Shown here piece after piece: positions 49,757-61,902 of a stretch of 64,000 nt of DNA. The notes beneath the pieces are model-generated. The model saw only the letters and a program-made list of their open reading frames with translations, had not been told where the DNA came from and ran no database searches. Origin of the DNA: Couchioplanes caeruleus (GTDB taxonomy: Bacteria > Actinomycetota > Actinomycetes > Mycobacteriales > Micromonosporaceae); the NCBI RefSeq assembly GCF_023499255.1, contig NZ_CP092183.1, forward strand, positions 2,972,501 through 3,036,500, in the 5' to 3' direction. Position numbers and translations under genes: made by a program. The stretch's first letter is position 1. Each line of letters starts with the position of its first letter.

Positions 49757-50437
49757 GTGGCGCAAGGTGTACGGCCCGAGCGGTGTGTGGTGGCCGTCGA
49801 CGGTCCCTCGGGATCGGGCAAATCCACCGTTTCCCGGCGTCTCGCCACGGCGATCGACGGCATCTACCTGGACACCGGCGCGATGTACCGGGCCGTGACC
49901 TGGGCCGTCCTGCAGGCCGGCGTCGACCTCACCGACACGGACTCGATCGTCAAGGTCGCCCAGGAGACGGACCTCTCGATCGGCACCGACCCGCTGGCGC
50001 CGCACTTCGAGGCCAACGGGGTGGACGTCGACGCGGCCATCCGCGGCCCCGAGGTCACCGGCGCGGTCTCGGCCGTCGCCGCGATCCCACAGGTACGCGC
50101 CATGCTCGTGCAGTTCCAGCGGGACATCATCGCCGGCGCCCCGCGTATCGTGGTGGAGGGCCGCGACATCGCTTCCGTCGTGGCACCCGACGCCGACCTC
50201 AAGGTGTACCTGACCGCGTCAGCCGCGGCCCGCGCCCAGCGGCGCAGTGCCGAGGACGCCACCGACGTGGCCGCGACCGAGGCCGACCTGGCCCGGCGCG
50301 ACAAGCTCGACTCGTCGCGCGCGGCCGACCCGCTCAAGCAGGCGGCCGACGCCACTGAGCTCGACACCACGGGCCTGGGCATCGACGAGGTCGTCGACCG
50401 GCTCCTGGACATGCTGAACAGCAAGGTGAGTAAGTGA
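49757..50437 (+). CDS. cmk: Cytidylate kinase
   Basis: A 226-residue (d)CMP kinase. P-loop [17 protein letters not shown] is near the N-terminus, followed by [12 protein letters not shown] and the NMP-binding [11 protein letters not shown] and [14 protein letters not shown] segments. GTG 49757 is chosen because ggagg lies five bases upstream; a TTG at 49745 would place the ribosome site inside the gene. The stop overlaps the der start (GTGA). Confidence 0.95.
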
Positions 50438-51858
50438 CTGACTTCCCCGTCGACCTCTCCGAGTTCGACGACGTGACCTTCAGCGACGGCACGACGGGCG
50501 ACGGCGACGAGCCGGCCGGCCCGCAGCCCGTCGTGGCCATCGTCGGCCGCCCCAACGTGGGCAAGTCGACGCTGGTCAACCGCATCATCGGCCGCCGCCA
50601 GGCGGTGGTCGAGGACGTGCCGGGCGTCACCCGCGACCGAGTCCCGTACGACGCCCAGTGGAACGGCCGCCGCTTCACCGTGGTCGACACGGGCGGCTGG
50701 GAACCCGACGCCAAGGACCGCGCGGCCGCCATCGCCGCCCAGGCCGAGATCGCCGTGCAGACCGCCGACGTGGTCGTCTTCGTGGTCGACGCCACCATCG
50801 GCTCGACCGACATGGACGAGAAGGCCGTACGCATGCTGCGCCGCAGCAACAAGCCGGTCATCCTGGTGGCGAACAAGGCCGACAACCAGGCCATCGAGCT
50901 CGAAGCGGTCTCCCTGTGGTCGCTCGGTCTCGGCGAGCCGTTCCCGATCTCGGCCCTGCACGGCCGAGGCTCGGGCGACCTCCTCGACGCCATCCTGGCC
51001 GCGATGCCCCCCGCGCCCCCGATCATCGAAGGCGGCCCCCGAGGCCCCCGCCGGGTCGCCCTGGTGGGCCGCCCGAACGTGGGCAAATCGTCGCTGCTCA
51101 ACCGCCTCGCCCGCGAAGAGCGCGCGGTGGTCGACTCGGTCGCCGGCACCACGGTCGACCCGGTCGACAGCCTGGTCGAGATGGACGGCGAAGTCTGGCA
51201 GTTCGTGGACACCGCCGGCCTCCGCAAGCGGGTCAACCAGGCCTCGGGCACGGAGTACTACGCATCCCTGCGCACCGCCGGCGCCGTCGAGGCCGCCGAG
51301 GTGGCAGTCGTCCTCCTGGACGCGGGAGAGGTGATCTCCGAGCAGGACCAGCGGGTGCTGACCTCGGTGGTCGAGGCGGGGCGGGCACTGGTGATCGCCT
51401 TCAACAAGTGGGACCTGGTCGACGACGACCGGCGGTTCTACCTCGACAAGGAGATCGACCGGGAGCTCAAGCGGATCCCCTGGGCCATCCGGGTGAACAT
51501 CTCGGCCAAAACCGGCCGCGCGGTCGACAAGCTTGCGCCAGCCATCCGCCGTGCCCTGGCCAGCTGGGAAAAGCGCATCCCGACCGGCGCACTGAACCAG
51601 TGGCTGACGGCACTGACCCAGGCCACGCCGCACCCCGTCCGCGGTGGGCGGGCGCCGCGCGTGTTGTTCGCTACGCAGGCCGGGGTAGCTCCACCGCGGT
51701 TCGTACTGTTCACCACCGGGCCGTTCGATGCCGGGTACCAGCGGTTCGTGGAGCGGAAGCTGCGGGAGGAGTTCGGGTTCGAGGGAAGTCCGGTGGAAGT
51801 CGCCGTACGCCCCCGCAAGAAGCTCGGCCCCGGCGGGCGCGGCAAGGCACACGGGTGA
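50434..51858 (+). CDS. der: Ribosome biogenesis GTPase Der
   Basis: A 474-residue protein with two tandem GTPase domains and a C-terminal KH-like domain. G1 motifs [10 protein letters not shown] (first) and [10 protein letters not shown] (second), G3 DTGGW and DTAGL, and G4 NKAD and NKWD are all intact. It acts in 50S subunit assembly. A short acidic N-terminus (~30 residues) precedes the first domain. GTG 50434 overlaps the cmk stop. Confidence 0.97.
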
Positions 51859-51881
51859 CCTTGGTCTTGCCTGTGCTGGGT

Positions 51882-51972
51882 CTTCCCGGCGTGCCGGCGC
51901 TTCCCGGGCATGCTGGCGCTGCCCAGCGTGCTTGTGCTTGCCGGCATGCGGGTGCTTCCCGGCATGCCGGTG
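51882..51972 (+). repeat. Five degenerate 18-bp tandem repeats downstream of der
   Basis: Units of about 18 bases begin at 51882, 51900, 51919, 51937 and 51955, e.g. cttcccggcatgccggtg (51955-51972). The last holds the palindrome ccggcatgccgg. They fill most of the 184-base gap between der and tRNA-Pro, at the left edge of the island. Function unknown; a gene here is not supported. Confidence 0.75.
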
Positions 51973-52042
51973 TGAACTGGGTTGGGGAGCTGGGGTAGGG
52001 TAGTCGTGTTGCCGCGCACTGGGGGATCTCGGGGCGTGGCAT

Positions 52043-52116
<74 letters not shown>

Positions 52117-52204
52117 CAGCGAAGGGGTTTTCGCAGGTCAGAGACTTGCGAGGACCCCTTTTTCGTGTCTGACGACGTCACCGGGATCGAGCACGCCGCT
52201 TGTA

Positions 52205-52215
52205 GACCCCTTGAC
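52205..52215 (-). other. Inverted copy of the candidate attachment core
   Basis: GACCCCTTGAC on the plus strand, the reverse complement of the tRNA-Pro core, 17 bases before the start of the first recombinase. It may be an arm/core-type binding site or an operator for the recombinase gene rather than a crossover site. Confidence 0.5.
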
Positions 52216-52232
52216 TCGGCAGGTGACGAGAG

Positions 52233-53195
52233 ATGCCCCTACTGAAGCTCGACCGACTGTGCGAAGGCCTGGAGAAGGGCGACTGGGCCGGCTTCCTGCG
52301 CGACTGGGACCGCGCCCTGCGGGCCGGGAATCACCCGGAGACCACGCGCTACAACTACCTTCTGGCGGCCGCCCAGTTGGCGAAGTATCTGACCGCGGAA
52401 TCACCGGACCCGGACGCCGATGACGCCGGGCAGGACCCGACTCTGGTGACCAAGGCGCACATCGAATCGTTCCAGGCGTGGATGATCGAAACCCGATCGG
52501 CGTCAACCGCGCTGAACAAGCACAAGAGCCTGCAGCAGTTCTTCAAGTACCTGGTCGAAGAGGAGGAGATCGACCGGTCGCCGATGGAGCGGGTGAAGCA
52601 ACCGCAGACCCCGCAAAAGTTGGTCCCGGTCATGGGTGACGACGATACGAAGAAACTGCTCGACGGCACCAAGGGCAAGTCGTTCATGGCGTTGCGGGAC
52701 GAGGCGCTGATCCGGCTGTACTACAACACCGGCGCCCGCCTTTCCGAGATCGGGAATCTGCTGCTGACTGATCTCGACATGAACACCGAGTCCGTCCACC
52801 TCCATGGCAAGGGTGCCAAGGACCGGCGGGTGCGGTTCGGGCCGAAGACCTCCCGGGCGATCGCGCGATATTTGCGGGCCCGCGCGAAACGCAAAGGTGC
52901 GGCCGATGTGCCGCAGTTGTGGATGGCGGAAAGAGGTGGCCGTCCGCTAACCCCGAACGGCATCAAGATCATGCTCAAACGTCGCGGCACGGCCGCTGGG
53001 GTGACGGATACGCACGCGCATCGGTGGAGGCACAACTTCGCCCACGAATGGCATCGGGCAGGCGGGAACACCGGTGATCTGATGCTGCTGCTCGGTTGGG
53101 CGTCTGACGACATGCCCCGTCGCTACGGCGCCAGTGCGGCGGCAGAGCGGGCGCAGGAGCTTCAGGTCCAGATGGGCATCGGCGAGCGAGTGTGA
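52233..53195 (+). CDS. Tyrosine recombinase/integrase, copy 1
   Basis: A 320-residue tyrosine recombinase. An N-terminal SAM-like DNA-binding domain (about 15-110, ETRSASTALNKHKSLQQFFKYL) precedes the catalytic domain. Visible catalytic residues are R169 (NTGARLSE), K193 (HGKGAKDRRV), H263 and R266 (HAHRWRHNFAHEW), and Y298 (PRRYGAS). The usual second His is Trp289 (LLGWASDD). It is close to copy 2 at 55.8 kb over its whole length. ATG 52233 follows gacgagag. It is the first gene after tRNA-Pro and probably mobilises this island. Confidence 0.93.
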   Translation: MPLLKLDRLCEGLEKGDWAGFLRDWDRALRAGNHPETTRYNYLLAAAQLAKYLTAESPDPDADDAGQDPTLVTKAHIESFQAWMIETRSASTALNKHKSLQQFFKYLVEEEEIDRSPMERVKQPQTPQKLVPVMGDDDTKKLLDGTKGKSFMALRDEALIRLYYNTGARLSEIGNLLLTDLDMNTESVHLHGKGAKDRRVRFGPKTSRAIARYLRARAKRKGAADVPQLWMAERGGRPLTPNGIKIMLKRRGTAAGVTDTHAHRWRHNFAHEWHRAGGNTGDLMLLLGWASDDMPRRYGASAAAERAQELQVQMGIGERV

Positions 53196-53201
53196 GGTGC
53201 A

Positions 53202-53241
53202 CGGGCTCGACGTGGTCGTGATCGAGACCGCGTCGAGCCCG
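53202..53241 (+). terminator. Hairpin terminator after recombinase copy 1
   Basis: Perfect 11-bp arms cgggctcgacg (53202-53212) and cgtcgagcccg (53231-53241), with an inner ggtc/gacc pairing. It starts six bases after the recombinase stop and separates it from the convergent HEPN gene. There is no T-run, as often in high-GC DNA. Confidence 0.7.
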
Positions 53242-53332
53242 CTTCACCCGTACATCCGACATTCGACGTATGGCCCCGAAGCCCGCGGGAAGGACCTGTC
53301 CAGAGGCACGAGCGTGGGGCTCGGGTCTGGAG

Positions 53333-53899
53333 TCATCGTCGATGGGCGTGGTCGACGACGCGGGGGTGACCGTCCAGGGCTGCGACGAACTGCTGGCAAA
53401 TCTGCGAGCACCGGTCCAGTGATGCGGCGGTGATCACGACCATGCCGTCGCGCACCGGTACACCCAGGACGCGGATCTTGCGGGGGACACCTGTCTCGAT
53501 CTGCTTGGCGGTGAACCGTCCGAGGCCGTGCGCGATCGCGTTACGGACCAGGAAGCAGGCATCAAGCTTGTCCCACATGGCGATGGCATGCAGGTCGACG
53601 TCGTGCCGTTGCTTGAGCGCGGCGGTCACGTCCGCCCATCCCCGAGCAGCGCGGACGGTGCGTTCGCCGTCGAGCTGTTTCAACAAGGCCTCGACGTAGA
53701 TTTCCACGATGCTCACCATGCGGAGCCAACAGGCGGCTCGCTCCACGGATGCCGGGTGGCCCATGGGGCCGGCCGCGGTGCGATGCCGCTGCCTTCGCTG
53801 GTCTTGGCTAACTGCTGCAGTGTGGTGCTGTACGAAGGTGGTGATCAACTGAGCCAGGGCGTCCTCGGTGAGCTCGAGCCGGGCGGGTTCTGGCGTCAT
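53333..53899 (-). CDS. HEPN-motif protein, partner of the reverse transcriptase
   Basis: A 188-residue mostly helical protein. Residues 119-124 read RNAIAH, the Arg-x4-His motif of catalytic HEPN ribonucleases, at the end of a helix (WDKLDACFLVRNAIAHGLGRF). An upstream helix IVEIYVEALLKQL fits the four-helix HEPN bundle. A beta-rich tail (KIRVLGVPVRDGMVVITAAS) follows. Its ATG overlaps the stop of the reverse transcriptase gene by four bases, so both are made together. By analogy with AbiA, where RT and HEPN parts are in one protein, it may be the toxic RNase effector of an anti-phage module. Function is inferred; the motif is seen. Confidence 0.75.
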   Translation of the reverse strand: MTPEPARLELTEDALAQLITTFVQHHTAAVSQDQRRQRHRTAAGPMGHPASVERAACWLRMVSIVEIYVEALLKQLDGERTVRAARGWADVTAALKQRHDVDLHAIAMWDKLDACFLVRNAIAHGLGRFTAKQIETGVPRKIRVLGVPVRDGMVVITAASLDRCSQICQQFVAALDGHPRVVDHAHRR

Positions 53900-55425
53900 G
53901 ACTGGCCGAGGATCGTCACGTGTAGCCCGCTGTCATGCCGCACTGCTTCGTAAGCGTCCCCGGCAACGGCGTGATGACCATGTAGACGCTGCAGGGCTTG
54001 CAAGTACCACGTCGCCAGCGCCGACGGTTCCCCGTCAAGCGCACGAATGACGTCCTGGGCTTCGATCTTGTTCACGTCGGCCAGCGCCAACGTGGCTTCC
54101 GCGCGTACGGCGGATCCGTAGCGTTGCGCGCGCTGGTCTGCGACCCAGGCGGTGAACGGCTCCGAGTCAGTCAGGTGGAGTTCGCGGATGGCCCGCAGGA
54201 TGCAGAGCCGTTGCCAGTCGCTGAGGCTGACGTCGTTGATGATGGTGCTGAGGCTGCGGGTCGTTGCCGGCCGGTCGATGGGGGCCATTGCCTGCAGGTA
54301 GCGCAAGACGTACGGCGTTGCGGCAGCGACGAAGGCGACGATGTTCTCCACCTTGGGCATGACCTCGACCGCGCGTGGCTCGCTGGAAGTCGCGAGCTTG
54401 GTCAGGGCTTGTCGGATGTTGCGGACGGCGGACCGGTTCGCCCCGTGAAGGTTGATCTGCGTGTCGTTTGCCGGCTGTCCGTCGAGTTCGCGGGGCGTCA
54501 CTGTCGAGCGCAGGGTGTCCAGGGCCCATGTCGGGTCAGGGTCATCGGAGCCGTCGTCGTAGTCGGCGACGTTGTAGTCGCGGTAGTAGGTGACGAATGA
54601 CGGTGTGCGGGTCTTGGACTCGTTGAGCACGAGTCCGTTGTCGCGGGCTGCTGAGGTGAGATCGTCGAGCGCACGTCTGGCATCCTCGAAGGACTCGACC
54701 GCGACGCGAAAGTCGTCGTTGTAGCGCCACGAGGGCCACTGCTGCCGTTGGATCGCGCGATGGATACGGCTCGCGTAGAGCTCGGAGAGTCGGTCCGATG
54801 GTTCGAGGAGCTGGGGTATGCCGTATCGGCGTCCCTGCACCTCGAGCAGGAGTTCGAGCAGGCATTCGATGGTGGCGTGGTCGCTGGTGCGCAGGAGCAG
54901 TTCCCGGCCGAGGATGTCGTGGTCGATGTAGTCGTAGAACGAGGCGAGATCGGCGGTGACGATGTACTCGATGTCCGCATCCTCGGGCCGGAACTCGTAG
55001 GTCCAGTTCTCAGCTTCGATGGCCGCGCGTGTTGTCCGGGTCTCGGCGAACCGTATCGGTGCGACGGTGAAGTCCTGGTAGGCCTCATTGGAGCGGTCCA
55101 CCTCGTACCTGGCCTTGGTCATGAGGAGGTCAGTCAAGGCCCGGTAGGTCACTCGCTCGGGGAATCCCCAAATGGCGACTGGCCGGCTGCCGGCCTCAGG
55201 CTTGGCGACACCGATGACCAGGCCGCTACCTGTGGTGAGTCCGGCCTGAAGTTGGCCGGTCAGCCACGCGGCGAACGTGGGTGCGTTCTCCTTCAGCTCG
55301 AGACCACCCGGCGTCGGTGGCATCAAGGCTTCGCGGGCCATGGCTTCCCCGCGGGCGGCTGCTGTCAGGTCGAGCTGAGCGAGGACATCGGCGGGAAGCG
55401 GGCGCATGCCGGTATGAAAGCACAC
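53896..55425 (-). CDS. Reverse transcriptase of the Abi/UG (defence-associated) type
   Basis: A protein of up to 509 residues. The RT core lies at about 70-290: motif A VTADLASFYDYIDHD (Asp159), motif B YGIPQLLEPSDRLSELYAS (about 201-219), motif C WRYNDDF with the catalytic YNDD at 235-238, and motif D LVLNESKT. Residues about 320-509 are helical and repeat-like, as in the alpha-repeat C-termini of AbiK/AbiA and unknown-group RTs. There is no maturase, HNH or retron features. The frame opens at GTG 55425; ATG 55407 is an alternative. It is coupled to the HEPN gene. A role in phage defence is inferred from RT class, partner and mobile setting. Confidence 0.88.
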   Translation of the reverse strand: MCFHTGMRPLPADVLAQLDLTAAARGEAMAREALMPPTPGGLELKENAPTFAAWLTGQLQAGLTTGSGLVIGVAKPEAGSRPVAIWGFPERVTYRALTDLLMTKARYEVDRSNEAYQDFTVAPIRFAETRTTRAAIEAENWTYEFRPEDADIEYIVTADLASFYDYIDHDILGRELLLRTSDHATIECLLELLLEVQGRRYGIPQLLEPSDRLSELYASRIHRAIQRQQWPSWRYNDDFRVAVESFEDARRALDDLTSAARDNGLVLNESKTRTPSFVTYYRDYNVADYDDGSDDPDPTWALDTLRSTVTPRELDGQPANDTQINLHGANRSAVRNIRQALTKLATSSEPRAVEVMPKVENIVAFVAAATPYVLRYLQAMAPIDRPATTRSLSTIINDVSLSDWQRLCILRAIRELHLTDSEPFTAWVADQRAQRYGSAVRAEATLALADVNKIEAQDVIRALDGEPSALATWYLQALQRLHGHHAVAGDAYEAVRHDSGLHVTILGQS

Positions 55426-55520
55426 GGTCGCCTACTGCTGACTTGTGGTGATCCACCTTCCGGTGGGAGCTGCCTCCTGTGCGGCTGCCTCGGACGTCGG
55501 CTGCTGAGTAAGGCTGCATT

Positions 55521-55625
55521 CTGGGTTGAACGTCGGATGGCATGCCGCGGCGGGCCGGTGCGAGCGCGGCGGTGGAGCGGGTGCAAGGGTTGCAGGTGCA
55601 GTTGGGCATCGGTGAGCGGATCTGA
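55521..55625 (+). pseudogene. Remnant of a third tyrosine recombinase (C-terminal end)
   Basis: Read in frame from 55521 the sequence gives LG-stop-TSDGMPRRAGASAAV followed by ERVQGLQVQLGIGERI, aligned with LGWASDDMPRRYGASAAA... of recombinase copy 1 to its last codon. The Trp codon is TGA (55527-55529) and the catalytic Tyr has become Ala. Only the last ~34 codons are recognisable. It lies just upstream (on the opposite strand) of the RT gene and marks an old insertion. Confidence 0.8.
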
Positions 55626-55806
55626 TTGGCTCACCGGCTGCGGCGGTGGGAAGTGCCGCAGCAGCCGGATCCGGCCCGGGGGAGTGGTGGGGGAGGAGAT
55701 AGGGGGAGACAGCTGCAGACAGCTTTCGCCTCTTGGGCCGCAGCTCGGATGATCGAAGGTGCGCCGCGCGTACGGCCTCGCGGTGCCATACGTGCCCTTG
55801 TACGTA

Positions 55807-55817
55807 GTCAAGGGGTC
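55807..55817 (+). other. Direct copy of the candidate attachment core
   Basis: GTCAAGGGGTC, identical to the tRNA-Pro core at 52081-52091 and in the same orientation, 29 bases before recombinase copy 2. It sits in a partly symmetric context (cccttg ... caaggg). The direct pair brackets 3.7 kb that contain recombinase copy 1 and the RT-HEPN genes. Confidence 0.5.
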
Positions 55818-55846
55818 CACGTGCCGGCTCGGCGAATGTCTGCGAG

Positions 55847-56803
55847 GTGGATGTGCTCGATCTGCAGAAGGTCTGTCACGGTGTGCCGCCCGCCTGGTTT
55901 GACTACCTGCGGGACTGGGATCGGATGCTGCGATCTGGGAACTACCCGGAGACCACCCGATACGGCTACCTGTTGGCCGGTGCGCAGCTGAGCCGGTTCC
56001 TGCTCGACAACGCCGAGCGGCTGGGGGCGGAGGATGCGGCGGAGGATCCGACCGAGGTCGAGCGCGGGCACATCGAGGAGTTCCAGGCGTGGATGGTGCG
56101 TACCCGGTCGGCGTCGACGGCTTTGAACAAGCACAAGGGGCTGCAGCAGTTCTTCCGGTGGCTGGCTGAGGAAAAAGACCTCGAGCGTTCCCCGTTGGCC
56201 CGAGTCCGCCAGCCCAAGACCGCGCAAGTCCTCATCCCCATCCTGGGCGACGACGACACCGCGAAGATCCTGGCTACCTGCAAGAGCAAAGACTTTCTGT
56301 CGCTGCGGGACGAGGCCATCATCCGTCTCTTCTACAACACCGGTGCCCGGCTGTCGGAAGTCGCCGGGCTGCAGCTGGACGACGTAGATCTCAACAACGA
56401 CTCGCTGCTGTTTCACGGCAAGGGCATGAAGGACCGCCGAGTACGGTTCGGCCCGAAGACCGGTCATGCGCTGAGCAAGTTCCTGCGTGCGCGCAGCCGG
56501 CGTAAGGCGGCCTCGTCGACGGCGATGTGGCTGCCTGCCCGCGGCGCGGTTCCGCTGTCGAGCAACGGCATCAAGCTCATGCTCCGGCGGCGCGGCGTTC
56601 TTGCGGGTGTGGACAACGTCCATGCGCATCGGTGGCGGCACAACTTCGCGCACGAGTGGAAGCTCGCCGGCGGTGACACCGGCGACTTGATGCTGGTGTT
56701 GGGCTGGTCGTCGGACGACATGCCTCGCAGGTACGGCGCGTCGGCGGCGGCTGAGCGGGCCCAGCTGACTCATGCGCGGCTGAGGATCGGCGAACGGGTC
56801 TGA
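55847..56803 (+). CDS. Tyrosine recombinase/integrase, copy 2
   Basis: A 318-residue paralogue of the recombinase at 52.2 kb, alignable end to end. The catalytic residues are Arg in NTGARLSE, Lys in HGKGMKDRRV, HAHRWRHNFAHEW and Tyr in PRRYGAS, again with Trp (LGWSSDD) where most tyrosine recombinases have the second His. GTG 55847 is preceded by gcgagg. It is followed by two small genes that probably travel with it. A copy of the tRNA-Pro core lies just upstream. Confidence 0.92.
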   Translation: MDVLDLQKVCHGVPPAWFDYLRDWDRMLRSGNYPETTRYGYLLAGAQLSRFLLDNAERLGAEDAAEDPTEVERGHIEEFQAWMVRTRSASTALNKHKGLQQFFRWLAEEKDLERSPLARVRQPKTAQVLIPILGDDDTAKILATCKSKDFLSLRDEAIIRLFYNTGARLSEVAGLQLDDVDLNNDSLLFHGKGMKDRRVRFGPKTGHALSKFLRARSRRKAASSTAMWLPARGAVPLSSNGIKLMLRRRGVLAGVDNVHAHRWRHNFAHEWKLAGGDTGDLMLVLGWSSDDMPRRYGASAAAERAQLTHARLRIGERV

Positions 56804-56819
56804 CGGGGGAGGCAACCTT

Positions 56820-57083
56820 ATGGCGTTGACGGCGAAGCAGCGGTCACGGCGGGCGCGGATCGCCGCGCACGCCTCGTGGGCAAATACGGGGGATCGGCAA
56901 GGTCGGACGGCTTCAGCAACGGCGTCGTTCTTGGCGAGGTTCGAGAAGCAGGTCGATCCGCTCGGGGTGTTGGAGCCGGAGATCCGCGCGACGATGGCGC
57001 AGCACGCGCGGCGCGCGTACATGCTGCAGCTGGCGGAGCGTTCGGCGAAGGTGCGAGCTCGGGGACCGAGTGGTGACGGCTGA
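56820..57083 (+). CDS. Small basic protein of mobile elements
   Basis: An 87-residue protein. The pattern ALTAKQRSRRARIAAHASWANT...ASFLARFEKQVDP...ARRAYMLQLAERSAKVRAR is one I recognise from many short unannotated proteins on actinobacterial integrative elements; no function is assigned. It is strongly basic at both ends and may bind nucleic acid. It starts 17 bases after recombinase copy 2 with gggaggcaacctt upstream, so the two are probably one transcript. Confidence 0.7.
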   Translation: MALTAKQRSRRARIAAHASWANTGDRQGRTASATASFLARFEKQVDPLGVLEPEIRATMAQHARRAYMLQLAERSAKVRARGPSGDG

Positions 57084-57204
57084 TGTCCCCGTTCGAGGTA
57101 TCAGCTCGGCTGCGGTCCGCGGTTCTGCGCGAGGATCGAAGCGGCACCGAGGTTCGAGATGGGCAAGGCGACATGACTCGCGTCTACTTGAGAAGGAGAC
57201 CATC

Positions 57205-58281
57205 GTGACCAACTACGCCATCGACGAGGACACCGGGACCCTGCTGCGGATCTGGCCGACAGGACGAGGGCAATGCGCGGCGGTGGTTTGCACCTTGCCT
57301 GCCGCCGCTGCGGTGGACGATTGGTTACGGCTCGCCGCGGCTCTGACGTCGTTGTCTGATGCGTTGTGGCGTTGCTACACCCATCCCGGCCTGTCGACCG
57401 ACGACCGGGACGGCAACGGAGAGGGATGGCGGCGTGAGCAGAGCCGCGAGTCCTTCTCGCAGCTGGTCGGATTCCTCAGGGAGCCGAATCTCCCAGGCGA
57501 AGACGGCGCCATCTTGGAGAGCTATGACCCGGTCGAAGAAGGGGCTCATCGTGTCGGCCGGGCGCTGCGGGCTCTCGATGACGTGAAGCTCCTCGAGGAG
57601 GTGAGCAGGGACGTCGCCGCGGAGATCGAAGCGGTCGAGTCCGCCGAACGTGGTGACTTGGGCGGTCGGGCCCAGCAGGCGGTGGTGTTGAGCCGCACCG
57701 ACGTGAGCCCGGTCCAGGTCGCCGCCGCCGACGGCGTGCTGGCGCTGGATCCGCTGAACGGCGAACATCTGTTCGTGGACGTCGACCCGACGGCCGCATC
57801 GGTGGCAGCCGCGCACTGGCTCAAGGCTGCTGCGGACGTCGTGGCCGAAGTGTCCGGCATGCCGGCGCACAGGGTGCTGATCGCCGCCGACGACATCGAG
57901 GCGTTGCCGGTCGAAACGCCGAGCGAGGTGCTGGAGCTGTTCAACTTCAGCAACACCGCCTACGGCGTGGTGGTGGAAATGGTTCGCGAGGCGATGGAGA
58001 TCGGTGCCGGCTCTGTAGCTGATATCGGGGCCTTGTTGGTCGAGCACGACACCGGAGACGACAACGACGACTCGGACGCTGAGGCGACGCCGGTGCGGCT
58101 GACCCTGTTGGATCCGCGACGGCCCGCTTTGGACTTGCTCGAGGATCTGCTCACCGGCATCCGCGGCTGCCGCCTGGTGTATGAGGAGTACGTCGAAGCG
58201 AGCGATGTCGCATCGACCGACACGCAGTTCTGCGAGGCGGTTCGCATGGAAGCGAGGAAGAACTACACCCGCCTGATGTGA
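57205..58281 (+). CDS. Unknown island protein
   Basis: A 358-residue acidic protein that I do not recognise. It has no signal peptide and no membrane segment. Segments such as DPTAASVAAAHWLKAAADVVAEVSG look helical, and there is an Asp-rich linker (DTGDDNDDSDAE) before the C-terminal ~60 residues. GTG 57205 has agaaggagac at ideal spacing. It may be cargo of the element of recombinase copy 2. What it does cannot be told from sequence. Confidence 0.75.
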   Translation: MTNYAIDEDTGTLLRIWPTGRGQCAAVVCTLPAAAAVDDWLRLAAALTSLSDALWRCYTHPGLSTDDRDGNGEGWRREQSRESFSQLVGFLREPNLPGEDGAILESYDPVEEGAHRVGRALRALDDVKLLEEVSRDVAAEIEAVESAERGDLGGRAQQAVVLSRTDVSPVQVAAADGVLALDPLNGEHLFVDVDPTAASVAAAHWLKAAADVVAEVSGMPAHRVLIAADDIEALPVETPSEVLELFNFSNTAYGVVVEMVREAMEIGAGSVADIGALLVEHDTGDDNDDSDAEATPVRLTLLDPRRPALDLLEDLLTGIRGCRLVYEEYVEASDVASTDTQFCEAVRMEARKNYTRLM

Positions 58282-58373
58282 GCAGTGAGATCGGCAGTTC
58301 ACGATGCATGTCCTTCGCGTATTCTTGGCGACGGACATAGTGCCTCCGCGTGCTGCTACTCGCGACCGCGCCA

Positions 58374-58420
58374 ACACACTGGCAGTGTGGGGGTCAGGGG
58401 TTCGAGTCCCCTCAGCTCCA
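58374..58420 (+). other. 3' half of tRNA-Ala(GGC): candidate attachment site
   Basis: The sequence acacactggcagtgtgg forms an anticodon arm with GGC anticodon and one broken base pair. It is followed by the variable bases, a perfect T-arm (agggg-ttcgagt-cccct) and the 3' acceptor strand cagctcc with discriminator A. There is no D-arm and no 5' acceptor strand (ggagctg or ggggctg) upstream, so it is not a whole tRNA. This is the usual product of integrase crossover in the anticodon loop. Confidence 0.75.
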
Positions 58421-58439
58421 CCCTTCTGAGCAGGCAAAA

Positions 58440-58480
58440 CGCACCGTCTAACTCTCCAAGTTGGACGGTGCGATTTTTTT
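58440..58480 (+). terminator. Strong Rho-independent terminator
   Basis: Arms cgcaccgtc (58440-58448) and gacggtgcg pair perfectly, with an extra aact/agtt pairing inside, followed by attttttt. It lies 20 bases after the tRNA-Ala fragment and was probably that tRNA's native terminator, carried along or left behind at integration. Confidence 0.9.
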
Positions 58481-58481
58481 G

Positions 58482-58952
58482 CGCACACATGTGCACACCG
58501 AATGATCTTGGCGTGCTCCGACCGCCAGGCCATGAAGGCGCCGCATCCTAGGCTCTACAGCGCCCCTGAGCTGCGAAAACTCTTCAGAACCACGAGATTT
58601 GCTCTATGGCGGCGCCCGCATTCAAGCTGTCTACGATTTGGTATCTGGTGACTCAAATCACATCTTGATCCAGGTGGTCAGAGCCGGGCCTGCCCCCGAA
58701 AGTCGCCCTCCTTCTCGTGGCTTGGCCGTTCCGCACTTCTGCCCGCGGGACGCAGCGGGACAGCCCCGGACAGCGCCAGTCAGGGCCTCGAGACCTGCCC
58801 TCGGCCGCCTTGTTGGGCAAGGCTTGCAAGAAGCCGGCAGAAACCCGCCTAGAGGCTCCTGCTGGAGGTCGAAAACATCTTCGCAACGGTGCAGCCCTAC
58901 GCCCGCCCTCCACTGGCTGCGTCGCTGCGTGCATGACGACGGGGAGGAACGA
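58482..58952. other. Stretch without a recognised gene
   Basis: About 470 bases between the terminator and the excisionase-like gene. The GC content looks lower than in the core regions. A frame from 58599 is open into the next gene, but its sequence resembles nothing and lacks a ribosome site. I see no RNA gene or repeat here. Confidence 0.5.
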
Positions 58953-59246
58953 ATGCCAGGGCAGGATGGCCGGCAGGCACAAAACGACGACGACCAGGAC
59001 CTCTACTACTCCGTGGAGCAGGTAGCTCGCAGGTTGAGGGTCTCCGCACGATGGCTCGCTGATCAGTGCCGTGATGGCCACGTCGAGCATGTGCATCTAG
59101 CAAGGAAACGCAAGTTCACCCCGGAGCAGGTTCAGAAGCTGCTCGACAGCCACACGGTCAAGCCCGCGGAGGTCCGCGAGCAAGAGAGGGGTCATGAACG
59201 AGCGGTGCAACGCGTGCGTCGGGAGCGCGCGCAACAACGCCGCTAG
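58953..59246 (+). CDS. Excisionase-like helix-turn-helix protein
   Basis: A 97-residue protein. An acidic Gln-rich N-terminus (QNDDDQDLYYS) leads to a winged-HTH of the excisionase/MerR type: VEQVARRLRVSARWLADQCRDGHVEHVHLARKRKFTPEQVQKLLDSH. The C-terminal tail is Arg/Glu-rich. ATG 58953 has ggggagg upstream. Such proteins act as recombination directionality factors or regulators in actinobacterial elements. It lies just before the primase gene. Confidence 0.8.
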   Translation: MPGQDGRQAQNDDDQDLYYSVEQVARRLRVSARWLADQCRDGHVEHVHLARKRKFTPEQVQKLLDSHTVKPAEVREQERGHERAVQRVRRERAQQRR

Positions 59247-59448
59247 GAACGCTTCATGCTCGAGTGAATGGCATCGGGTAACGCCTGACTCCCACAAGAA
59301 TTTCTGTGGGGGTCGCGCGTCCCTGTCCGCAAATTGAGCTGCGGTCAGTCGCCTGATCCGTAGCTCAACTTTACCGCAGCGGCGCGTTCGCCGCCAGCAA
59401 GCCGGTGACCCTCGCCCTTGACGCTTGCAGTAAATCAATGGGGACTAC

Positions 59449-61902
59449 GTGGATAGCACTCCTGACACACTTTCCGCATCAATGGCATGGTTCCATGCGG
59501 GCTGCGCTGTCATTCCCATCCGCGCCGATGGGAGCAAAGCGCCTCTCGTCTCGTGGCGCAGTTATAGACAGGCGCCGCCAGATCGAAGGCAAGTGGAACA
59601 ATGGTTCACGGGCAATCCGCCGGGACTTGCAGTCGTCTGCGGGAGCGCCTCCGCGGGGCTTGAAATGCTTGAGTTGGAGGGGCGCGCCGTCGACGAAGGG
59701 CTGGGCCAAGCACTTATCGAACTCCTCGCGCAAGCCGGCCTTGCCGATTTGTGGAGGCGACTCACCTCCGACGGCTATTGGGAAAGAACGCCGTCCGGCG
59801 GCGTTCACATTTTGTACAGGATCTCCGGTGCCGCAGTTGATGGGAACCTGAAGCTGGCACGGCGCCCAGCAACTGAATATGAACTGTCGATCGACCCGGC
59901 CGACAAGGTCAAGACACTAGCCGAAACCCGAGGAGAGGGCGGGTACACAATCGTTGCCCCATCCCACGGGACGGTGCACGAAAGTCGACGCCCCTGGGTC
60001 GCCCTGAACGGATCAACGCCGGCGCGCATCCCCACAATCAATGCGGAAGAACGCACGGCTCTATTGAATGCGGTTCGGGCACTTGATGAGATGCCAGCAG
60101 CGCGATCTGCCGTGACCCATCGTCCCGTTGCTCCACAGGGTGGACAGGACCTCACGCCTGGGGATGACTTCGAGCGTCGCACCGATTGGATCGACATTTT
60201 AGGTCCGGTCGGGTGGACACTCGTGCACACGGTAGGTCGCACGCGCTATTGGCGGCGTCCAGGGAAAAATACCGGCATCTCCGCTACAACCGGACGCGCC
60301 GACGACCGCGACCGCCTTTTCGTGTTCAGTAGCAGCACGATGCTGGAGACGGACACGCCGCTGACGAAATTTCACGTATTCGCGGTACTGCACCACGCAG
60401 GGGATCACAGCGCAGCTGCCCGAGCGCTACGGCAAAACGGCTACGGCCACAACCCTGACCGGCAGTCCGCTCCGTCCAGTTCCGTAGGGCGCGAAAAGCA
60501 GGCGGTGGCACGCGTTACCAGGGAAGCACCATCGCCGCCCGCGGCCTGGGGGCCGACCGAAGACGGACTCGCGCGGGCCTTGGTCGCCCACCATGGTCAC
60601 GAGCTGAGGTATTGCCCCCAGCGAGGAGCCTGGCTGCTCTGGTCGGGGCATCGATGGGTATGGGACGACGCGGAACGGCATCGGGAGTTCGTGCGAGGGC
60701 TGGCCCGGCAGTTGCCGGCTGCCGGGGGTTGGCGGCGTTTCCGCTCGCAGGCGCTTTCGGCGGGCGGGGTGTCCGGCGTCGTACGCCTGGCGCGTTCAGA
60801 CCCAGCCGTAACCGTGTCCTTGACGGCACTTGATGCGCGCCCCTACGAGCTGAACACGCCCGCGGGCGTGGTGGACCTGCGAACGGGTGAGGTCCGAGGT
60901 GCCGATCCTGAGCTGCTGCATACCCGCTCCACTGCGGTGGCGCCGGACTTCGAGCGACCGTCGGACGTCTTCGACACGTTCCTACACGACACCTTCGGCG
61001 ATGACGCCGAGCTGGCTGGGTACGTGCAGCGGTTGATCGGAGTCTCGGCGATCGGCTGTGTGCTCGAGCAGCTGCTGCCCTTCGCAGTGGGCCCTGGTGC
61101 GAACGGCAAGTCGACACTGCTGGAAGCAGCGATGCACGCGCTGGGCCGTGGCGACGATGGTTATGCGCGGGCGGGCTCGTCGGAGATGCTGATGGTGCGT
61201 AAGCACGCGGAGCACCCGGCCGAGCTGGCGCAGCTGTCTGGTGCACGGTTGGTGGTCTGTGCGGAGCTCGACGAGGGGCAGCGTTTCGCCGAGGCGCGGG
61301 TCAAACAGCTGACCGGCCGCGATTCGTTGTCGGCGCGGTTCATGCGGCGGGATTGGTTCACGTTCGAGCCGAGCCACACCTTGTGGCTGCTCGGCAATCA
61401 CCTGCCGGCAGCACGGGCCGGTGGTCCTGCCTTCTGGCGGCGGATCCGGGTGCTGCCGTTCAACCGGGTGGTGCCGCCGCAAAGGCAAGACAAAAAGCTC
61501 GGTGAGCGTCTGGCGCAGGACGCGCCCGCGGTTCTGGCGTGGATCATCGCCGGGGCTGCGGCCTATCACCAGGGTGGGCTTCGAGAGCCGGCGTCGGTGT
61601 CGTCGGCGACCGAGGCGTACGCCAGGGATCAGGACACGGTTGGTCGGTTCGTTGACGAGCAGTGTCATAGGCAGCCCGGGTCGGCGGGGGTACGAACAGC
61701 CGTGAGCGTGTTGCGTGATGCATACGAGCGCTGGTGCGAGCAGCTGGGCGAGCGGCCGGTGTCAGCCAAGCGGCTAACGCAGGAGCTGCAGAGCCGGTTC
61801 GGTGTTGCCGATGCGCGGGGCGGCAAGGGGCAACGCTTCTACACCGGTATCGCGCTGCTGGACGTCGACGATCCTCAGACCGTACTGCCCGTCCAGTCAT
61901 GA
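59449..61902 (+). CDS. Prim-pol/P4-type primase-helicase of an integrative element
   Basis: An 817-residue replication protein. The N-terminal prim-pol domain (about 1-200) shows GLAVVCGSASAGLEMLELEG, with Glu-Leu-Glu where many relatives have Asp-x-Asp, and RTPSGGVHILYR. A D5-type middle part and an SF3 helicase follow: Walker A GPGANGKSTLL (near 547), LVVCAELDEGQ (Walker B) and FEPSHTLWLLGNHLP. It would replicate an excised element or satellite phage. GTG 59449 is used. The first ~1.1 kb has visibly lower GC and rarer codons than the last ~1.4 kb, suggesting a mosaic gene. Confidence 0.88.
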   Translation: MDSTPDTLSASMAWFHAGCAVIPIRADGSKAPLVSWRSYRQAPPDRRQVEQWFTGNPPGLAVVCGSASAGLEMLELEGRAVDEGLGQALIELLAQAGLADLWRRLTSDGYWERTPSGGVHILYRISGAAVDGNLKLARRPATEYELSIDPADKVKTLAETRGEGGYTIVAPSHGTVHESRRPWVALNGSTPARIPTINAEERTALLNAVRALDEMPAARSAVTHRPVAPQGGQDLTPGDDFERRTDWIDILGPVGWTLVHTVGRTRYWRRPGKNTGISATTGRADDRDRLFVFSSSTMLETDTPLTKFHVFAVLHHAGDHSAAARALRQNGYGHNPDRQSAPSSSVGREKQAVARVTREAPSPPAAWGPTEDGLARALVAHHGHELRYCPQRGAWLLWSGHRWVWDDAERHREFVRGLARQLPAAGGWRRFRSQALSAGGVSGVVRLARSDPAVTVSLTALDARPYELNTPAGVVDLRTGEVRGADPELLHTRSTAVAPDFERPSDVFDTFLHDTFGDDAELAGYVQRLIGVSAIGCVLEQLLPFAVGPGANGKSTLLEAAMHALGRGDDGYARAGSSEMLMVRKHAEHPAELAQLSGARLVVCAELDEGQRFAEARVKQLTGRDSLSARFMRRDWFTFEPSHTLWLLGNHLPAARAGGPAFWRRIRVLPFNRVVPPQRQDKKLGERLAQDAPAVLAWIIAGAAAYHQGGLREPASVSSATEAYARDQDTVGRFVDEQCHRQPGSAGVRTAVSVLRDAYERWCEQLGERPVSAKRLTQELQSRFGVADARGGKGQRFYTGIALLDVDDPQTVLPVQS

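Follow-up and report, generated by a model that had tools for sequence, protein, structure and literature searches.

What does a reverse transcriptase (RT) contribute to its cell when the gene directly behind it encodes a separate HEPN protein? The question is raised by two overlapping genes in a 64,000-nucleotide (nt) stretch of the genome of the soil actinobacterium Couchioplanes caeruleus, which is called the window below. An earlier note, made from the sequence alone, described an RT with a YNDD motif coupled by a four-base overlap to a 188-residue protein with the motif RNAIAH, placed this operon in a recombinase-flanked cassette, and suggested either a split AbiA-like system or a distinct two-component type. 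The overlap, the protein length and both motifs were confirmed in the sequence. The pair was assigned to the UG22 RTs and their RTasHEPN partners, and we propose, with a probability of about 0.45, that the two genes form an anti-phage system, probably one acting by abortive infection, and that within it a protein-primed, template-free RT would restrain a separate HEPN RNase.

A UG22 reverse transcriptase and its HEPN partner

In a profile search, the best RT family was PADLOC RT_UG22 (PDLC03760), with 398.5 bits over residues 11 to 506 of 509 (RT residues are numbered throughout on the 509-amino-acid [aa] form), followed by UG21 with 99.1 bits; the nearest other PADLOC profiles were UG21, UG20, Drt8 and UG19. 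This full-length match bears out the UG/Abi type that had been supposed. The group II intron maturase model TIGR04416 was rejected at 48.8 bits against a cut-off of 300, as was AbiA proper, which was absent from the best 25 of 48 matching PADLOC families. The scores for the four DRT models listed by NCBIfam were far below their cut-offs, and no match to the RT was found in phage records. The AlphaFold model of the RT was confident and consisted of an RT and a helical domain, as in DRT6, AbiK and AbiA, with the best full-length fold matches to DRT6, DRT4 and AbiK and 381 residues aligned to AbiA. Retron structures matched the RT core only (214 to 218 residues aligned), and group II intron and diversity-generating retroelement structures likewise matched by the core only. 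The catalytic residues D159, D237 and D238 were present in 27/27 HEPN-paired RTs, including that of the window.

The protein encoded beside the RT matched PADLOC RTasHEPN (PDLC03820) with 115.3 bits. Its confident AlphaFold model was a HEPN-like helical bundle with HepT toxins as nearest structures, so the predicted fold agrees with the HEPN character that the motif had suggested. Pfam HEPN families gave no match to the partner protein at E ≤ 1, and a search of PDB sequences with the A3 profile returned nothing but ribosomal S10, at E of about 1. The HEPN motif R-x4-6-H was found as RNAIAH in the window and as RNxxxH in all 27 partners, and Glu66 was kept together with RNxxxH in every one of them, with identity to the HEPN protein of the window falling to 18%. 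Judged from its residues, the HEPN protein is probably an active RNase. Outside UG22, RTasHEPN matched weakly in two genomes from a different family within the phylum (37.2 and 35.7 bits), with no match to the UG22 RT profile within 12.5 and 9.4 kb around the two genes. RTasHEPN-like proteins lacking a nearby UG22-type RT were seen in the loci L059 (6659-7378) and L058 (6435-7151), and in L059 the gene is followed by open reading frames (ORFs) that we take to resemble an NYN-type nuclease and a DUF1156 protein.

The UG22 profile search at E ≤ 1e-40 gave matches in 20/354 genomes of the family, 6/394 of the class and 13/397 of the order, in draws that overlap. Once L053 was dropped as the same place as L003, 32 separate RT loci from 31 genomes remained. 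One of them, L033, fits UG32 better than UG22 (746.7 versus 166.2 bits), leaving 31 UG22 loci. A HEPN gene lay directly downstream on the same strand at 27 of these, so the second gene is conserved beside the RT, and it was a separate gene at 27/27. At 16/27 paired loci (16/23 and 0/4 in the two sets), a possible HEPN start codon gives a 4-nt overlap with the RT stop. The four HEPN-less loci, L032, L052, L070 and L071 (the last two first seen as L068 and L069), shared no neighboring ORF within 5 kb by blastp; an antisense HEPN match in L068 (E 0.03) was left out of the counts.

A maximum-likelihood tree of all 32 RTs separated the five that lack HEPN, including the UG32 row, from the others by one branch (support 95/95; 0/500 shuffles gave a value as low), with L033, L052 and L051 as long branches of unsure placement. 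Pairwise identities of RT and HEPN proteins correlated at 0.957 (351 pairs), as expected from joint inheritance. The best two of four plasmid matches, both from Rhodococcus, also carried an RT followed by a HEPN gene with RNAVAH; the two genes overlap by 4 nt in one plasmid, and the annotation of the other leaves 176 nt between them. One genome (G021) contained two divergent UG22-HEPN pairs (L041 and L044), and at L049 (genome G150), one of the 27 paired loci, an insertion interrupts the RT gene but leaves the HEPN reading frame open.

The loop tyrosine and the proposed mechanism

A finding new in this analysis is that a tyrosine, Y289 of the window, tracks HEPN pairing among UG22 RTs. It lies in the loop between the RT and helical domains, 17 to 56 residues long in 17 non-redundant rows, and was aligned in 26/27 HEPN-paired RTs in three alignment modes, with the paired L051 as the exception. 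None of the four UG22 RTs that lack HEPN has it; in the UG32 row, the residue at this position is a tyrosine. In the wider set A2, Y289 was invariant over 47 rows, for a minority of which HEPN partners were checked. The pattern Y-x-[DEGNS], picked after inspecting the loops, occurred in 16/17 non-redundant RTs versus a mean of 8.8 in shuffled loops (0/5000 as high). Looser tests were weaker, with Y-x-[DE] in 12/17 (21/5000 shuffles as high) and any tyrosine in 16/17 versus 11.7 in composition-matched random loops (35/3000). The available text on AbiA describes the priming tyrosines Y298 and Y303 in a disordered loop (290-310) between the RT and helical domains, and the loss of both adduct and polymerase activity in the Y298/Y303 double mutant (PMC11077055). 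The distance from the tyrosine to the catalytic aspartates was similar in the UG22 RT and AbiA. Given its conservation, its loop position and this distance, Y289 is the strongest candidate for the residue that primes.

In the mechanism that we propose, the UG22 RT would act as a template-free DNA polymerase and start DNA on its own Y289 in the flexible loop, as in AbiA. The RT with its DNA adduct would bind the separately encoded HEPN dimer and keep it inactive; phage infection would disturb the RT or its DNA, and the freed HEPN RNase would cut tRNA or mRNA and halt the cell. What the analysis shows is the families, the conserved pairing, the conservation of both active sites, the predicted folds and the loop tyrosine with its absence from the four HEPN-less UG22 RTs. 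Relatives suggest the rest: a part in defense, protein priming and DNA synthesis by the RT, RNase activity of the HEPN protein, direct contact of the two and the direction of control. Tentatively, the adduct on the loop tyrosine could itself be antitoxin and phage sensor for an active HEPN RNase. Such a protein-DNA toxin-antitoxin, if true, would follow a retron-like logic without an RNA gene, the tyrosine and the HEPN partner being gained or lost together.

The direction of control might be the reverse, with the RT making DNA upon infection and the DNA or the charged RT switching the HEPN RNase on. DRT9 is reported to form long DNA adducts once infection occurs, and the nitrilase of DRT1 to be activated by DNA synthesis (both in the available text of PMC13275509). 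Sequences alone do not separate activation from release, but the precedent of retron-Kva2, as far as its report was available (PMC13405049), favors inhibition in the resting cell, and we regard activation as on the unlikely side. A split AbiA, in which the HEPN protein would be a non-catalytic dimerization scaffold and the DNA-synthesizing RT the effector, we consider unlikely. AbiA joins RT, helical and HEPN parts in a single chain, its HEPN part mediates dimers and showed no RNase activity, and removal of HEPN leaves the polymerase inactive (available text of PMC11077055); the fold match over the 381 residues is in line with such a layout. However, AbiA carries R-x6-H (same source) versus RNxxxH with Glu66 in all partners here, and the invariance of these residues down to 18% identity disfavors a HEPN protein that serves only as a scaffold. 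The AbiA authors add, in the same text, that AbiA defense may not rely on cell death (PMC11077055). Of the split AbiA-like system proposed in the earlier note, the AbiA-like layout over two genes stood, and identity with AbiA proper did not.

An RNA-templated system, in which an unrecognized noncoding RNA (ncRNA) encoded nearby would be template or scaffold by analogy with DRT2, DRT9, DRT10 and retrons, appears improbable. Upstream similarity extends over 105 nt to the nearest relative (76%) and over 96 nt within the close group L045/L046/L049 (77 to 78%), but only over 16 to 23 nt at the start codon in other close relatives, and the upstream RNA folded no better than shuffles (z 0.47). Downstream, similarity was confined to the near-identical pair L045/L049, 74 nt between L042 and L043, and otherwise 13 to 25 nt; no element common to the whole set was found in 400 nt up- and downstream. 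Rfam had no match at E ≤ 1 in 52700-56900, a search that would miss retron RNAs outside Rfam, and the statement that no ncRNA template is evident was upheld. Least probable, and very much so, is a selfish toxin-antitoxin or maintenance module of mobile elements with no part in defense. Its patchy distribution (20/354 family genomes), module-like boundaries, plasmid copies and some mobile-element families nearby fit such a module; UG/Abi kinship and defense-labeled neighbors speak against it, selfish and defense roles not being exclusive.

The UG22 RT is a little-studied antiviral type, and the pair bears on what untemplated UG/Abi RTs achieve for the cell with the DNA they make. Since polymerase and putative effector are in separate genes, each can be mutated alone, and changing one residue per protein (Y289 or H124) is predicted to disable the pair in a different manner. 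A ready-made natural comparison lies between UG22 RTs that have both the tyrosine and a HEPN partner and those that have neither.

Module boundaries and genomic surroundings

The coordinates of the pair and surrounding features are given in Table 1. The ATG is the likely true RT start, being conserved in the alignment of relatives and giving the same length as relative P0032. The short block directly upstream of it may be a promoter from which a leaderless transcript starts. The strong hairpin is probably a terminator shared by int1 and the HEPN gene, as it lies outside the shared module and between convergent genes.

Table 1. Features of the RT-HEPN pair and its surroundings in the window.
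Feature	Position	Strand	Remark
UG22 reverse transcriptase	53896-55407	minus	503 aa from ATG 55407
RT, alternative longer form	53896-55425	minus	509 aa if GTG 55425 is used
HEPN protein (RTasHEPN)	53333-53899	minus	188 aa; 4-nt ATGA overlap with RT stop
YNDD catalytic motif of RT	54712-54723	minus	residues 235-238
Y289 codon, candidate protein-priming tyrosine	54559-54561	minus	RT-helical loop, low-confidence 288-294
RNAIAH, HEPN R-x4-H motif	53528-53545	minus	residues 119-124
Short block directly 5' of RT ATG	55408-55427	minus	common to several close relatives
Hairpin between int1 and HEPN genes	53200-53242		z -3.94 for 53200-53332
Stretch common with Micromonospora sp. RHAY321	53310-55507		2.2 kb, 86% identity
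tRNA-Pro(GGG)	52043-52117		upstream of int1
Tyrosine recombinase int1, full	52233-53195		3' end copy 53091-53195
Integrase 3' end remnant	55521-55625		D1 family, 72-74% identical
Second tyrosine recombinase, full	55847-56803		3' end copy 56699-56803
Prim-Pol + D5_N protein	59449-61902		

Within 50000-60000 of the window, no further match to Micromonospora sp. RHAY321 was found beyond the common stretch, and the pair thus resembles a 2.2-kb unit that moves independently. The pair is convergent to int1 and lies between int1 and the middle one of three integrase 3' end copies, with the second full integrase beyond. This middle remnant is about 14 nt from the module edge, and the module may therefore have landed in a tandem integrase array. 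The recombinase-flanked cassette holds for the window, where integrases stand beside the pair, but is local, as they lie outside the common stretch and the window-type integrase (profile from both window integrases) was found at 0/25 other RT loci and 0/2 HEPN-only loci. That scan covered loci other than L070 to L075 and would miss distant integrases, and some of the loci end at contig edges.

From the tRNA-Pro gene onward, GC content was 62 to 71% for about 90 kb versus mostly 71 to 78% before it, and a large island starting there is possible. No second copy of the tRNA-Pro end was present within about 90 kb downstream, so the island limits could not be set. The window also encodes a Prim-Pol + D5_N protein; such proteins are often found in integrative elements or phage satellites.

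For the neighborhood comparison, 111 ORFs near 20 of the 27 paired loci, with the near-duplicates L045 and L049 counted twice, were set against 120 control ORFs taken from 20 regions in the same genomes; a GC3 rule guided the choice of ORFs, and 25 families were listed for each set. Pfam Phage_integrase was not among the 25 families listed for the neighbors and matched 2/120 control ORFs, which speaks against an integrase-borne unit in general. PADLOC families matched at E ≤ 1e-15 numbered 122 near paired loci versus 37 in controls, and included pPIWI-RE, pAgo, PtuA, a CBASS-type cyclase and E1-E2, DrmA, and type II methyltransferase and restriction-enzyme models; Pfam neighbors were RepSA, transposases and resolvases. 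This enrichment is support and not proof, since families are not independent proteins and control ORFs also matched defense-labeled models (BrxHI, SngC and PD-T4-6). In other genomes, defense genes are among the neighbors of the pair, which behaves as a module of 2.2 kb, in agreement with the defense setting envisaged at the outset.

Comparison with known systems

Both genes of the window match the PADLOC DRT models RT_UG22 and RTasHEPN with no difference in kind, and these profile matches place the pair within an already catalogued group; the distinct unrecorded type considered earlier is not upheld, as PADLOC 2023 already has both families under DRT. No functional account of UG22 was found in the literature searched, which did not extend to the UG/Abi survey of Mestre 2022, where a UG22-HEPN link may be stated. 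HEPN-MNT toxin-antitoxins (HepT) have no RT, unlike the UG22 pair; the HepT antitoxin is an MNT-family nucleotidyltransferase.

The Lactococcus protein AbiA resembles the UG22 RT in the tyrosine of the RT-helical loop. It differs in its HEPN part, which is fused to the RT C-terminus and, in the available text, has no detected RNase activity, whereas the UG22 partner is a separate gene product with R-x4-H, and the best sequence family of the UG22 RT is UG22. The type IX retron, retron-Kva2, likewise combines an RT with a separately encoded small HEPN protein, and its RT complex is described as sequestering a HEPN dimer that is later released and cuts tRNA (available text of PMC13405049). Unlike the UG22 pair, it has its own ncRNA and multicopy single-stranded DNA, a winged-helix protein and a HEPN protein without the canonical motif (same source), and judged by its size of 36 kDa its RT would have no helical repeat domain. 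DRT1, a class 3 UG system, differs in its fused nitrilase effector and in Ser402 as priming residue, and sets the example of an effector controlled by DNA adducts that are made on a protein primer without a template (available text of PMC13275509).
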